A stretch of 33,021 bases of DNA from Lentisphaeria bacterium (GTDB taxonomy: Bacteria; Verrucomicrobiota; Lentisphaeria; Victivallales; Victivallaceae), in NCBI GenBank assembly GCA_017462015.1, contig JAFTRX010000008.1:1-33021 (forward strand). Reading direction: 5' to 3'. Within the stretch, counting starts at the first letter, position 1. Every line of letters starts with the position of its first letter. The notes beneath the pieces were generated by a model. It was not told the origin of the DNA, searched no databases, and saw nothing but the letters and a program-made list of their open reading frames with translations. The position numbers were made by a program, and so were the translations under genes. Positions 4,569-33,021 of this stretch are shown one piece after another.

Positions 4569-5648
4569 TCATTTAACTCCCCAGAAACGACGGTTATTCG
4601 GCTTGGTGGCGCTGGTATTCATACAGCCTTTCAGGAAAGCGGCCCGGACAGATCCGGCGTGGCCATCCAGATAAAGCAGCGGCATTGAAGTTCTTTTATT
4701 GTGTATGGTTATGGCGTTCACGTCTGCAGTACAATCCATGCCGTATGTCACTCCACAGTAAATATAGGAGGCCTGGGAAAGAGACGGAATTTTTATAATG
4801 TCGGTACCGTTACGGCATGAGTATTCAAATTTAAAGTGAGTGATTTTTCCCATATAGTCGTTAACACCATAAGAACATCTGGGCATGGTACCGTTGGAAC
4901 GCCGGTACATTTTGCAATTCCAGAAACTGAGGGTGCGATCATTGTCAAAACTGAACGGATTGGAAATATAACGTTTGTTGGGCAGATCTTCCTGAAATCC
5001 GCCAACCTGAGCGTACCAGTAGCCATTGGACCCTCTGGCGTTGCCGGATCTGGGCTTGTAGCCGTCGAAATCCTCAACATAATGCATGACAGCTTTGCCC
5101 ATTTGTGAGAGTTTGTTCACACATTCCAGTTCGTTGGCACGTTCCCGGGCGCTTTGCAGAGCGGGCAGCAGCAATGCTGCCAATATGGCAATTATCGCAA
5201 TAACAACGAGCAGTTCTATTAAAGTGAAATGGCTCGCGGGGAAAGGGGAAAAACTTCTTTTCACGGGAAAAGAGTTTTTTCCCCTCTCCCCGCACCCCTC
5301 TCCTCTTTTCAAGAAAAGCGGAGTATTTTGCGGCTCCAGTTTGTCGCCGCGCTTGAAAAAACGCATTGGTGAGATAGAAGTATTCACGAGCAGTTCTATT
5401 AAAGTGAAATGGGAGTGTGCGGGGGACAAGGAAAACTTTTTTTCACGGGAAAAAAAGTTTTTCCTTTCCCCCGCGCCCCCTTTCTCTTTCAAAAAAAGCG
5501 GGATGATTTTGCTCCAGTTTGTCGCAAAATTTGACAAATACTTCTGCAGAAACAACAACGAAACACATATTTGGCAAGTTTTACTCACCAGCAGCTCGAT
5601 CAAGGTGAAGTGGAAGCGTGGAGAAATGGTACAGGTATGCTTTTTCAT
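4569..5648 (-). CDS. Prepilin-like protein with three tandem leader motifs
   Basis: Protein of 359 residues with the type IV prepilin / type II secretion pseudopilin signature FTLIELLV three times, starting near residues 14, 81 and 141. Only the third is followed by the hydrophobic helix ([16 protein letters not shown]) that normally makes such a leader work. The first two are each followed by a hydrophilic insert (59 and 52 codons) that belongs to the repeat element described at 5229-5384 and 5409-5585. The body after the third leader is an ordinary Lentisphaerota-type pseudopilin head with conserved cysteines and an H...DG motif near the C terminus ([13 protein letters not shown]). The start is preceded by AAAGGGG. 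It is the first gene of an operon with a glycosidase-like and a DUF4838 protein. Whether the expanded N terminus is exported and cleaved is unknown. Confidence 0.85.
5206..5232 (-). repeat. 27-bp direct repeat over the third leader motif
   Basis: This 27-bp segment, which encodes most of HFTLIELLV, is repeated without a mismatch at 5386-5412, exactly 180 bp away (60 codons). The flanking bases differ on both sides. The first leader of the same gene (5586-5609) uses different codons, so the match comes from DNA duplication and not only from protein conservation. Confidence 0.9.
5229..5384 (-). repeat. Leader-inserted repeat unit, 52-codon type
   Basis: A 156-bp unit between the second and third leader motifs of the prepilin-like gene. 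Read with the gene it contains a conserved block around GCGACAAACTGGAGC, a purine-rich tract (GAGGAGAGGGG), and a strong hairpin at 5245-5284 whose arms are GGGGAAAAACTTCTTTT and AAAAGAGTTTTTTCCCC around a CACGG-type loop. The same block recurs at 23254-23430. It contains no transposase and is too short for an intein. The insert is in frame. Confidence 0.85.
5386..5412 (-). repeat. 27-bp direct repeat over the second leader motif
   Basis: Exact partner of 5206-5232. Recombination between the two copies would remove one 180-bp unit and leave an in-frame gene with one leader fewer. Confidence 0.9.
5409..5585 (-). repeat. Leader-inserted repeat unit, 59-codon type
   Basis: A 177-bp unit between the first and second leader motifs. 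Its gene-proximal part (from AGTAAAACTTGCC) differs from the 52-codon type, but from GCGACAAACTGGAGC onward it is the same kind of element, with purine-rich tract and hairpin (5428-5466). Its first 138 bases match 32884-33021 at 137 positions, although the leader codons just before the junction differ between the two genes. The repeat therefore starts precisely after the last valine codon of the leader. Confidence 0.9.
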
Positions 5649-10845: not shown

Positions 10846-10913
10846 TATTCATCTCCTGAAGTTGAGATCTTCTGTTATCAAAGGCGGTTTCAAATCTAAA
10901 ATTTTCTACGTCA

Positions 10914-10942
10914 AATATACCATACAGACATTTTTTTTACAA
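10914..10942 (-). promoter_or_regulatory. Shared promoter block, copy A (GH20-like operon)
   Basis: On the minus strand TTGTAA (10937-10942) and TATATT (10914-10919) are 17 bases apart. The surrounding 80 bases (10901-10982) match two other places, 17450-17530 and 19055-19135. The most conserved part is TCAATAATTTCATTGTAA, which overlaps the -35 and holds the dyad CAAT-6-ATTG. The transcript would start near 10907, about 60 nt before the GH20-like start. The dyad next to a modest -35 fits an activator site, for example for the AraC protein encoded just upstream at 11068-11868. Confidence 0.65.
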
Positions 10943-11067
10943 TGAAATTATTGACTAAAGTATAGATAAAATGATGTTTTCAAAGAAGCTGTTTTCAGCG
11001 TGGCGGAATGCAACAGTGACCGGGACCGCCGGCAGAAGTAAAGGGGTCGTGATGGCAAACGACAGCT

Positions 11068-16575: not shown

Positions 16576-17358
16576 TCAAAGACCAGGGTAATAGTGGGAA
16601 CTGTAATCGAGATCGTAATAAGGAAGGAACTGCCGGCAGCGCCTCAACTGGGCTTGTTCGTAAAATTGGGATACCGCCCCTGATAAGGAGATGATATTGG
16701 CATATCTTCTTTTGTGCCGCTGAAAAATCACTCCATACGGAACCGAAAGCGGCTTGGCATAGGAGAGGGCAGTATACCCCTGGAAAACATCACCGATTAT
16801 ACCATGATGACGTTTGCATTGGGTAACTCTGCCGTCCATACTGTTGGCAACCGGGGTGTCGCCGAAAACCGTCACGCCGGGTGCATATCGGCTTTTCATG
16901 ACAACGGATAATTTGATCATACACGACTGGTATGAGTTGTTTGCAACGGGAATTATCCGTGAAGAGGTTCCAAAAGTGGACCCATTATGACCGATATGCG
17001 GATTTTTCGTTCCATTGTCACTTACGCCCGATCCTTCTTCCGGACACCGCCAGACATCTCCCAGCTTGAGGTAGCCAAGTCTATCCAGGACAACCGTGAA
17101 GAAATCACCGTATACGATGGACGGCAGACACCATTCGGAATCTTGGGAATACATGTTGAAAGCCAGATACGCCTGCCGGAGATTGGAAGCACAAGCAGAA
17201 CTGCGGGCGGTACTCCTCGCCGAGCTCAATGCCGGCAACAGCAACGCCGCAAGAATTGCAATAATGGCAATAACGATGAGAAGCTCTATAAGGGTAAAGA
17301 TACCGTGCCGCTTCGATGACAGATGACGAAAGTTGGAAAAAGATGAAATACGATTCAT
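16576..17358 (-). CDS. Prepilin-like protein, single intact leader
   Basis: Protein of 260 residues with a normal prepilin/pseudopilin N terminus: short basic leader (SSKRHGI), FTLIELL and the hydrophobic helix [17 protein letters not shown], then a globular head with several cysteines ([17 protein letters not shown]). It is the only one of four prepilin-like genes here without a repeat insertion, so it shows the normal layout. I start at ATG 17358 because AAAGGA stands 8 nt upstream and because the shared promoter block B lies at 17466-17493; the longer frame to 17475 would start upstream of the predicted transcript start. Expected in the inner membrane and periplasm as a type II secretion or surface pseudopilin; real role unknown. 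Confidence 0.85.
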
Positions 17359-17415
17359 GTCCGATATCCTTTCTGCAGTTTTCTGCATTTTGTCCGTCCG
17401 GTTGATTTTTCCGAA

Positions 17416-17442
17416 CGTTCCGGGAAATATAAAATCAGAACG
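17416..17442 (-). promoter_or_regulatory. Conserved 5'-UTR hairpin (prepilin-like gene)
   Basis: On the transcript CGTTCTG pairs with CGGAACG (one G-U pair) around a 13-nt loop. The same structure occurs at 19025-19051 with CGTTCCG, so the stem is kept through a pair change. A second small hairpin (TGCAG-AAAA-CTGCA) follows just before the ribosome site. Confidence 0.5.
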
Positions 17443-17465
17443 ATCTGAAATTTTTTTCCACGACC

Positions 17466-17493
17466 AATATACCATACAGATATTTTTTTACAA
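17466..17493 (-). promoter_or_regulatory. Shared promoter block, copy B (prepilin-like gene)
   Basis: Minus strand TTGTAA (17488-17493) and TATATT (17466-17471) with a 16-base spacer, embedded in the same conserved sequence as copies A and C, including TCAATAATTTCATTGTAA. The transcript would start near 17459, giving a leader of about 100 nt. The similarity with copy C extends past the promoter through the 5'-UTR, roughly 17375-17530 against 18980-19135. Confidence 0.65.
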
Positions 17494-17557
17494 TGAAATT
17501 ATTGACGAAAATATGGATAAAATGATGTTTTCAGTTTGCCGGAATGTATCCGATGGA

Positions 17558-19051: not shown

Positions 19052-19072
19052 ATTTGGAAATTTTCTGCGTCA

Positions 19073-19101
19073 AATATACCATGATAAATATCTTTTTACA
19101 A
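19073..19101 (-). promoter_or_regulatory. Shared promoter block, copy C (GH28-like gene)
   Basis: Minus strand TTGTAA (19096-19101) and TATATT (19073-19078), spacer 17, within the conserved block. The upstream part (TTTATCCATGCTTTCG followed by the TCAATAATTTCATTGTAA core) is nearly identical to copy B. Predicted leader length is about 120 nt. Confidence 0.65.
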
Positions 19102-19194
19102 TGAAATTATTGACGAAAGCATGGATAAAAAAATGTTTTTGAATAATCTGTTTTCAACTTGAAAATATGCTGAAAACAGAGGTCATCTTATTAG

Positions 19195-22234: not shown

Positions 22235-23215
22235 ATGGTTACAATGAAAGAGATTGCCGAAAAGGCCGGTGTAAGCCGTACCACGGTATCTTTTGTCTTG
22301 AACGGGCGGTGTCATAAGGATCAGCGTGTATCCAAGGCGGTACAGAAAAAAATTCTCGATACCGCAAAGAAATTGGGCTATGTACGCAACGATCTGGTGC
22401 TTTCGTTGGTCAAGGGGCGTACTCATGCCATTGGCATCGTCTCCGAATTCAAAGATTTTGTCTTCCCAATCATCCGCGGCTATGCGCAGGAAGCTCAGAA
22501 TCATGGTTATTCTCTCCGGCTGTTTCAGGTAGATGACGATCTCGAATCAGCCCTGACCAAAGCGATCCAGGCCAGAATGGATGCGATCGTCTGTCTGGGT
22601 ATTTCAAGCTCTCTGGTTAAAAATATTCCACAGCATTTTTTTAATATGGGTATTCCGATCGCCGGATTGAATCAGACCGGACATCCGGAGCATCCTTTTC
22701 TGGATCAGCAGCACAGTGCGGCGGCAATGACGGAATATCTGGTTGAGTGCGGATATAAGAAAATCATTTGTTACGGAGGCAACTACCCCCAGATGCCGCT
22801 GCGCGAAGCCGGATACCGGGAAGTTATGGAAAAATATCAGCTTCCATCACAATTTCTGAACCATCACTCAGTTTCTCCGGATGATATTATCGACCTGAAG
22901 CCGGATGCGGTTTTCTGTGGTGACGACTACCTTGCCTGCCGGCTGCTTCAGGCGGCATATTTGCGCAACATCCGTATTCCAGAAGCATTCGGTGTCGCCG
23001 GTTTCGGCAATACCAATGTCAGCAATTTCTCATCCCCGGCACTGACCACGGTGGATGAATCTTTTTTTGAATCCGGTGTAATCAGCATGCGCAATATAAT
23101 TCTCTCCATTGAAAACAAAAAATTTCCGGAACAAACTCCGATAACCGGAAAACTTATAATCAGAGGAAGTACAAAAAATTTACCCCATAATTTAAAAGGA
23201 AAGGACGAAAAATGA
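22235..23215 (+). CDS. LacI-family transcriptional regulator
   Basis: Protein of 326 residues. The N-terminal helix-turn-helix is typical ([20 protein letters not shown]), then a hinge and a periplasmic-binding-protein-like sensor domain ([37 protein letters not shown]). The sensor lacks a strongly conserved repressor C terminus but is of full length. It is the first gene of the operon and overlaps the next by ATGA, so it likely controls its own operon, with fucose or a fucosylated sugar as the probable signal (inferred). The ATG at 22235 was kept; a second ATG at 22244 is also possible, as neither has a clear ribosome site. Confidence 0.9.
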
Positions 23216-24162
23216 AAACAAAGAAAAAAATGGCGTTTTTCACCTTGATCGGATGGCAGGAGGATTTATCTGTATCACCACTGCGTTTTTTCAAACGCTG
23301 CGACAAACTGGAGCAGCAAAACACCCCGCTTTTCTTGAAAAGGGGAGAGGGTTTGGGAGAGGGAAAACCCGGTGCCGACGTTCGGCTCTTTTCCCGTGAA
23401 AAGAAGTTTTTCCCCTCTCCCATAAAACCCTTCACTTTGATCGAACTCCTGGTCGTAATTGCGATCATTGCAATTCTGGCGGCAATGCTGCTTCCGGCGT
23501 TGGGGTCGGCGAGAAAGCGGGCAATCGCAGTAAACTGTACAAATAACTTGAAACAGGCAGGTTTTCTCCATGCGCTGTATATGGATCAGAATGATGAATA
23601 TGCTCTGGGAGCCTATGCTTCCGGCAAATGGTGGTTCAGCCATCTGCAGGGGATGAATAAAAACCGCAAACCGGATTATTTGAGCTGCCCTGCCAATCCG
23701 ATAAATAAATGGAATGACGGAGTCAATACCTGCTATGAGATGTCATACGGTTTGAATATCGGAACTTTCGGCAAAAATCACGTCGCCAATCCGGGGAAAA
23801 CTACGATGAATCGTTTAAGCAAACTTGGTGTATTGATGAAATTTCCCAATGCCAACAACTGCATATTCCTGATAGATGTGGCAAATTACAAAAGCAATAC
23901 GATGATATCCAAAACCGCAGAAATTTATCAATTCCACTCTTACGATAAATATTTCCATCCATTCAATATTACCGCCAAGGGGGTGCTGGCGGCGCACCAC
24001 AACAGGAGGACCAATGCGCTTCATCTGGCCGGACACGTTTCCAGTCTCGGTGTTGGTGAACTCTTTGATGGATCCGGAAAATTCACCCAAGCCGGTCTTT
24101 ATAAATATATGAATCCGCACATTATGGATACCTGTGAACTTCATAATCGTCCGAAACCGTGA
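23212..24162 (+). CDS. Prepilin-like protein with broken first leader and repeat insertion
   Basis: Protein of 316 residues. It begins [19 protein letters not shown], where FTLI is the start of a leader motif that breaks off into repeat-element sequence. After the inserted unit, an intact FTLIELLV (23431-23454) is followed by the hydrophobic helix [16 protein letters not shown] and a pseudopilin head domain. First and second leader starts are 192 bp (64 codons) apart, in frame. The start codon overlaps the LacI stop (ATGA). It lies in the fucose operon ahead of the glycosidase genes, as in the operon at 1239-5648. The intact leader begins near residue 74, far from the N terminus, so normal export is doubtful unless an internal start is used. 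Confidence 0.85.
23254..23430 (+). repeat. Leader-inserted repeat unit in the fucose-operon prepilin gene
   Basis: It shares with 5229-5384 a head (TATCACCACTGCGTTTTTTC against CTCACCAATGCGTTTTTTC), the GCGACAAACTGGAGC core, the purine-rich tract and the right arm of the hairpin (CTCTTTTCCCGTGAAAAGAA). About 17 bases around CGGTGCCGACGTTCGG interrupt the left arm. The hairpin region is read one base out of frame compared with the 52-codon unit, so peptide identity is lost while DNA identity is kept. Confidence 0.85.
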
Positions 24163-32814: not shown

Positions 32815-33021
32815 ATGAAACATCAGATGCCCAGGTATACCGGGGTAAAGCACTTGGGCTTTACCCTTATAGAACTTCTCGTGAGTAAAACTTGCCAAAT
32901 ATGTGTTTCGTTGTTGTTTCTGCAGAAGTATTTGTCAAATTTTGCGACAAACTGGAGCAAAATCATCCCGCTTTTTTTGAAAGAGAAAGGGGGCGCGGGG
33001 GAAAGGGAAAACTTTTTTTCC
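32815..33021 (+). CDS. Prepilin-like protein, partial, with repeat insertion after its leader
   Basis: The first 69 codons of a gene that runs off the right edge. AAAGGAGG precedes the ATG by 6 nt. The leader is textbook (GVKHLG, then FTLIELLV at 32860-32883, with glycine at the -1 cleavage position), but instead of the hydrophobic helix the repeat unit follows directly and the frame stays open to the edge. The gene at 4569-5648 predicts that a second FTLIELLV comes about 60 codons after the first, beyond the window. Probably cotranscribed with the aminotransferase. Confidence 0.8.
   Translation, partial: MKHQMPRYTGVKHLGFTLIELLVSKTCQICVSLLFLQKYLSNFATNWSKIIPLFLKEKGGAGERENFFS
32884..33021 (+). 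repeat. Leader-inserted repeat unit, 59-codon type, cut by the window edge
   Basis: These 138 bases equal the minus strand of 5585-5448 at all but one position. The preceding leader codons (ACCCTTATAGAACTTCTC) differ from those of that gene (ACCTTGATCGAGCTGCTG), so only the insert was copied, with a sharp boundary after the GTG valine codon. Confidence 0.92.

Follow-up and report, generated by a model that had tools for sequence, protein, structure and literature searches.

How does a prepilin gene come to carry its leader motif three times in a row? The question is raised by the window, a 33,021-nucleotide stretch that is the whole of contig C125 of genome G000, a 2.8 Mb, 131-contig Lentisphaeria MAG that is 93% complete. 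The 80 loci kept from at least 295 relative-encoding stretches are all from Lentisphaerae/Lentisphaeria MAGs (80/80), many of them from sheep colon, and the window has no match in Rfam at gathering thresholds. The gene at 4569-5648 encodes FTLIELLV three times in frame, with leader codons that begin at 5609, 5408 and 5228, and the hydrophobic helix VIAIIAIL follows the last copy only. The first-pass annotation had described three leader motifs 201 and 180 bp apart with the frame kept, which the minus-strand ORF confirms; its unit size of about 160-180 bp (156-177 bp) is corrected here to 201 and 180 bp. The features are as follows.

4569..5648, minus strand: prepilin-like gene of 359 aa with three leader motifs (ORF plus PF07963 matches)
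5586..5609, minus strand: leader 1, TTCACCTTGATCGAGCTGCTGGTG, probably the recipient gene's original leader
5386..5586, minus strand: unit A, 201 bp, with the 5' module SKTCQICVS, palindromic core, 3' module and its own leader
5385-5408, minus strand: leader 2, carried by unit A
5206..5385, minus strand: unit B, 180 bp, with 5' module, palindromic core, 3' module and its own leader
5205..5228, minus strand: leader 3, carried by unit B, presumably the working leader
5239..5290, no strand: self-complementary core of the dispersed repeat, a long hairpin with compensatory changes between copies
16576-17475, minus strand: prepilin gene without a unit
23212..24162, plus strand: second prepilin gene with a unit, its first leader decayed to FTLI-GWQ (23239-23250)
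23251..23453, plus strand: decayed unit of the second gene, closing with the working leader 23431-23454
32815..33021, plus strand: start of the third prepilin gene, with leader 32860-32883 and unit A, cut at the contig end

The repeat occurs four times in the window, as first counted: twice in gene 4569-5648, once in 23212-24162 and once at 32883-33021. Three of the four prepilin genes bear it, and the fourth (16576-17475) does not. The window also lacks a transposase, as had been pointed out, yet this says little about the whole genome. Orthologs of the two complete unit-bearing window pilins were sought in the 34 genomes of the genus. Pilin 1 has matches in five other genomes, at 39-42% identity, and each of these loci (L120-L124) has a single parsed prepilin leader with no cassette before it (5/5). 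For pilin 2 no match was found at E<=1e-15. A separate direct repeat of 51-104 nt (TTTTTTTACAATGAAATTATTGAC...), with copies 81-94% identical, lies at 10899-11002, 17483-17533 and 19058-19161, and one copy lies beside prepilin gene 16576-17475 (minus strand), right ahead of its start.

The three-leader pattern is not chance, since it recurs in many genes and genomes. The gene at 4569-5648 itself could be the product of an assembler joining two genes through unit A, because unit A is 99% identical over 144 bp to sequence at two other contig ends, those of C3 and C15. Leader-insert-leader arrangements occur in 66 genes of the loci loaded (54 double, 11 triple and 1 quadruple), a count that includes two doubles later dropped, L031 and L091. 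L031 is probably not a double leader, given its ortholog L294 (STLSELQK), and L091 is decayed. The four-leader gene is L141, and the triples include L050, L051, L052, L055, L057, L129, L132 and L150; in L050 like units stand in tandem.

What the first-pass annotation saw as one repeat is a composite of two layers, a palindromic core and a leader-flanked unit. The core is REP/MITE-like. In its own genome 25 of the 45 places examined are in prepilin genes and 20 outside them, numbers that are no full census (the underlying search scored 40 of 100 candidates). The claim that the repeat sits in prepilin leaders and nowhere else holds inside the window but fails genome-wide on those 20 places. They have different ends and no leader, and 14 of them overlap no ATG-initiated ORF of at least 100 aa. 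Seven further prepilins beyond the core count (L091, L098, L101, L103, L111, L113 and L114) have an element or remnant. The core hairpin has 31 consensus pairs, nine of them with changes on both sides among 20 chosen copies of the 45. At L134, L142, L145, L146, L179, L183 and L247 further repeats are nested inside the core (SGKRAASEVSRPSRWSGLIESLKN; PARSAGCGKTRPSVFVSLRRDESLRWGSDND), and because of this nesting repeats seem to insert into repeats.

The targeted entity is the unit ending in its own leader, not the palindromic core. Each unit opens with a 5' module, continues with a cargo and closes with a complete leader of its own. The cargo is often the palindromic core; other cargoes are a SLRPAGRTSR...HIFTQSA type, a VRKHTESA...FIRSA type or a small hairpin type without the core. 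Two exact 5'-module patterns taken from known units were searched in the 34 whole genus genomes with no mismatch allowed, a search that misses other modules and diverged copies elsewhere. Module 1 was found at 20 places in seven genomes and module 2 at 27 places in seven genomes, in every case directly behind a prepilin leader (20/20 and 27/27). All 47 places have the same base and the same orientation relative to the leader. Neither pattern has an intergenic copy in the 34 genomes, and reversed control patterns of both modules gave no matches there. Five of the 47 target leaders are degenerate (FTLIKLLV, FTLIELPV, FPLIKLPV and, twice, FILIELLV).

The parsed prepilins of G000 number 69, and 28 of them carry an element or remnant. 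The frame is open across the element in 28/28, two of which (L039 and L040) are cut by a contig end. The first leader is recognisable in ten of the 28, one of them doubtful; the other 18 include one decayed first leader and two genes cut by contig ends, and for the remaining genes decay or deletion has to be assumed. For leaders with no native helix behind them (n=92) the longest gap to the next leader is 360 bp, and 17 have no next leader within the available sequence; the measured inserts (75/92) are at most 360 bp. Most genus genomes with at least 40 prepilin-like candidates have many element matches; the prepilin-poor G006, G009, G019, G027 and G031 (1 to 5 candidates) have none or one.

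The left boundary of the units is sharp. The boundary analysis covered 82 inserts, L031 and L091 included, 16 of which are not directly before a hydrophobic helix and are mostly followed by another unit, so that some of the leaders scored as leader 1 are themselves unit-borne. In 139 pairs whose units start almost identically (90% or more over the first 40 nt; the pairs are not independent), ten synonymous sites of leader 1 match at 0.50, compared with 0.50 in 2464 unrelated pairs. Likeness climbs from the last base of the Val codon, and the bases that follow are nearly identical. Because the synonymous codons of leader 1 match as in unrelated pairs despite near-identical units, leader 1 is read as the recipient's own, probably preserved as FTLIELLV until recently, and the last leader as having come with the unit. 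This profile also speaks against homologous exchange with crossovers spread over leader 1. At the other end, 323 pairs of unit ends alike over their last 40 nt, again not independent, match at 0.75 of the leader-2 synonymous sites versus 0.56, best at sites 2, 5, 6, 17 and 18. Past leader 2 the wobble sites are at baseline. First and second codon positions just past it are slightly raised (about 0.8 versus 0.7), and for this reason slightly more than the unit may travel at times. Taken together, the matching profiles in leader 1, in leader 2 and behind it suggest that the transferred piece begins just behind the GT of leader 1 and stops near where leader 2 ends.

Leaders 1 and 2 of the same gene share a suffix of 6.2 nt, compared with 4.0 (sd 0.3) in 2000 shuffles (80 inserts). 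The likeness exceeds the shuffles but is far from complete: a subset of these pairs has been evened out or duplicated, and target duplication, though possible in some genes, is not general. Leader codon usage in 52 native targets shows no clear synonymous preference compared with 47 empty leaders (lowest p 0.033 of 10 tests).

Empty and filled versions of the same leader can be compared between genomes. L085 is empty in G000, and its filled counterpart L243 (= L155) in G003 has upstream DNA that is 95% identical over 179 bp and the identical leader TTCACGCTTATCGAATTATTGGTA. On the filled side, L180 has the leader brought by the unit, TTCACTTTAATAGAATTGCTGGTA, followed by the GTTATAGCTATTATAGC that is also present in the empty L085; L180 is G003:C42 by sequence, with the overlap in the unit, and the filled counterpart therefore spans two contigs that share unit sequence only. 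In this pair the target may have been duplicated over no more than 5 bp (TGGTA). Between L085 and L301 no codon of the TM part differs (0/14), which makes this the clean-insertion case. In the second pair, L090 (empty) and L226 (filled, in G008), compared on the left side only, the DNA is 97% identical over 168 bp and the leader is shared except for one base before the third base of the V codon. L111/L232 is not counted as a clean pair, having common upstream DNA but differences inside an older relic. Between G000 and G003 there are 38 reciprocal best prepilin pairs, 32 of them at 60% or more. By sequence signatures, 21 of these 32 are element-free in both genomes; among the other 11, five differ in presence, three differ in the kind or number of leaders and units and three agree. 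The first-pass annotation had expected most copies in leader codons, with empty sites in related strains. This stands for orthologous leaders, which are found empty and filled, and for the modules, which lie only at leaders (47/47), but not for the core, which is also found outside pilins.

The units have spread between unrelated pilins. Median cassette DNA identity is 0.86 and median mature-domain residue identity 0.29 (medians only are used, since some pairwise cassette alignments are a few bases long), and the two are uncorrelated (Spearman -0.03, p 0.60). In 29 ortholog pairs of at least 75% identity, codons for the same residue differ at 81/230 positions in the leader, 150/394 in the TM part and 558/2169 in the mature part. 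L088/L309 is an extreme case, with 8/8, 6/14 and 2/83 codons changed in leader, TM and mature part; others are L113/L290 and L091/L303. In such pairs the leader and TM codons are scrambled although the mature part has hardly changed, so paralogs seem to swap their N-terminal stretch.

Two further observations concern the region before the leader. In the G000/G003 pairs L104/L311, L108/L304 and L115/L299 the stretch from start codon to leader is strongly different, even without a unit, while the mature parts are 83-93% identical; by this comparison the pre-leader region appears to be hypervariable. An inverted repeat just before the leader, its last arm formed by the leader's first bases, occurs in 16 of 64 own prepilins examined and in 0.9% of shuffled upstream sequence; in many cases it takes the form of two hairpins, for example CACCTGCCCGCGGGCAGGTGAAGC...GCTTCACC. 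Stems of at least 10 nt are found in 12/64 own prepilins versus 0/1280 shuffles. The loci include L046, L047, L080, L091-L094, L097, L100, L105, L106, L109 and L110, and the inverted repeat is possibly another leader-linked repeat or a translation signal.

We give a probability of roughly one half to the reading that the units are non-autonomous in-frame cassettes copied into pilin leaders, probably by repair synthesis between paralogs. Both ideas of the first-pass annotation, a non-autonomous homing element and cassette exchange between pilin genes, survive in it, with the reservation that the object is composite and its core untargeted. Prepilin leader codons would serve both as the landing site and as the carried end of the cassette. 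A break or free 3' end at the GT of a leader would invade another pilin gene that has leader, unit and leader; synthesis would copy the unit and its leader, whatever sits between both leaders, and then return to the recipient. The unit would land directly after the GT of ...LLV in the recipient leader. That leader would remain ahead of the unit, no longer in use, and the pilin behind, itself unchanged, would now depend on the leader brought by the unit. Repeated landings would give arrays of two to four leaders. Prepilin peptidase is established as the enzyme that cleaves the pre-leader part off type IV pilins. The gene would stay in frame and should still work, because the peptidase removes everything before the leader's Phe, and the insertion would then be neutral. 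Repair synthesis would account for these features: the left boundary is sharp, cargoes differ, orientation is constant, synonymous codons do not matter and the units contain no gene. Against it, the break would have to fall always at the same base, and neither a break nor a nuclease or intermediate was seen. Donor leader-1 codons carried along, expected often from plain homologous exchange, were not seen in any insert.

A related proposal is held more tentatively. The leader codons may be the attachment site of a cassette system without a transposase, in which sequence between two leaders spreads itself and is copied at one exact base whatever the synonymous codons, either through leader-primed break repair or through a recombinase that reads the codon-fixed bases. 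Homing endonucleases can ignore the wobble positions of coding targets.

The enzyme search in G000 and the genus covered three families: Y1 transposase, RVT_1 and the Resolvase family. Y1 (TnpA_REP) transposase PF01797 has no match at E<=1 in G000, with 10 of 14 control genomes positive. RVT_1 (PF00078) is found in eight of 34 genomes, the unit-bearing G001, G015, G016 and G018 among them, and was not found in the unit-bearing G000, G002, G003, G008, G012, G017, G021, G029 and G030, which are incomplete MAGs. Homing by reverse transcriptase is rejected as a general cause on this distribution. The single Resolvase-family gene of G000, a serine resolvase (G000:C9), has relatives in two of the 33 other genomes and is rejected as the main cause.

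A possible though doubtful alternative to repair synthesis is a site-specific recombinase or transposase, encoded elsewhere, that inserts circular or linear units after the GT at the leader end, in the manner of integrases whose element bears a copy of the end of its target. It would yield the same sequences. The base-exact left boundary, the unit end at the same leader position, the fixed orientation and the up to 5 bp (TGGTA) that may be duplicated between L085 and its filled counterpart all agree with such an enzyme. However, the ends vary by unit type and show no terminal inverted repeats by inspection, target leaders have no clear synonymous-codon preference, and of the three families searched, Y1 was not found in G000, RVT_1 was not found in nine unit-bearing MAGs and resolvase relatives occur in 2/33 genomes.

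Ordinary inheritance, by duplication of one repeat-bearing ancestral pilin and unequal crossing over between leaders, is unlikely. Prepilins are a large paralog family (69 in G000), their leaders are obvious sites of unequal exchange, and the tandem like units of L050 have the expected look; some tandem arrays may have arisen in this manner. As the main cause it is rejected on the lack of correlation between cassette and mature-domain identities and by a leader 1 of recipient type even where units are near identical, and empty orthologs with the same upstream DNA also speak against it. Random REP/MITE-like insertion, visible only in leaders since the cleaved pre-leader part tolerates inserts, is less probable again. 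The core does lie outside prepilin genes at 20/45 places, and inserts with an open frame (28/28) sit where the product is processed off; random insertion is possible for the core's original arrival. Yet tolerance would permit any in-frame site from start codon to leader, and intergenic DNA as well, and the modules sit at one base in 47/47 places, which rejects it as the main cause. Assembly artefact, with leader arrays as chimeras joined through identical repeats, is very improbable as a general cause: contigs C125, C15 and C3 do break off within near-identical copies of unit A, and contig ends also fall on several units of other genomes, but in-frame double, triple and quadruple arrays with different units lie inside contigs of several MAGs, the triple and quadruple ones at L050, L051 and L141.

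If copying into leaders is the true course, this would be mobile DNA adapted to a protein motif rather than to a fixed DNA word, its target being a conserved peptide signal present in about 70 genes of one genome, with an insert that supplies a new copy of the signal and keeps the frame. The N-termini of such Lentisphaerae prepilins, which are long and odd, would be accounted for, the movement of gene-less elements would become testable through empty versus filled leaders, and a method for inserting sequence in frame at conserved coding motifs could follow. The way of spreading has a fair chance of being new. Among the open-licence papers listed in searches on Lentisphaerae/Victivallis prepilins and on prepilin repeats, none deals with leader insertions, which is weak evidence of absence.

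The nearest published kind appears to be the Rickettsia palindromic elements (RPEs), which the passages cited here describe as palindromic, about 100-150 bp long and inserted in frame inside genes (PMC10969869, PMC3767692). The leader units also insert in frame into ORFs, and they share the hairpin-forming palindrome for the core cargo only. In the same passages RPEs are described in unrelated genes, whereas the leader units lie at one codon of one paralog family, with the modules at prepilin leaders in 47/47 places; also unlike RPEs as described there, they have copies of the target's own coding motif on either side and are stacked in arrays. The core resembles REP/RAYT elements and MITEs in being a dispersed palindrome with compensatory changes and no gene of its own. 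Unlike in REP/RAYT systems, the Y1 transposase was not found in G000. As for the marks of a MITE, inspection of the leader-flanked unit shows no inverted repeats at its ends, and one pair allows a target duplication of up to 5 bp. Neither of the two modules searched turned up in intergenic DNA.

In collaborative homing, as outlined in the passage cited, an intron that lacks an endonuclease is served by a free-standing one (PMC2988022). Like homing elements, the leader units sit at an exact position in a conserved coding target that is empty in other alleles, as two DNA-level pairs show, one on the left side only. Unlike in homing elements, the targets are some 70 divergent paralogs in one genome, and the insert, which keeps the frame, is not known to be spliced. 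Neisseria pilin genes recombine with silent cassettes, exchanging through conserved stretches; this changes the exposed mature part of the pilin, whereas leader units change the part before and around the leader. Integron gene cassettes have unlike cargoes, each ending in its own recombination site, and are arrayed behind a resident site. The leader units have this topology in common, since leader 2 travels with the cassette and the left junction is fixed at the GT, but their site is a translated motif that varies at synonymous bases.
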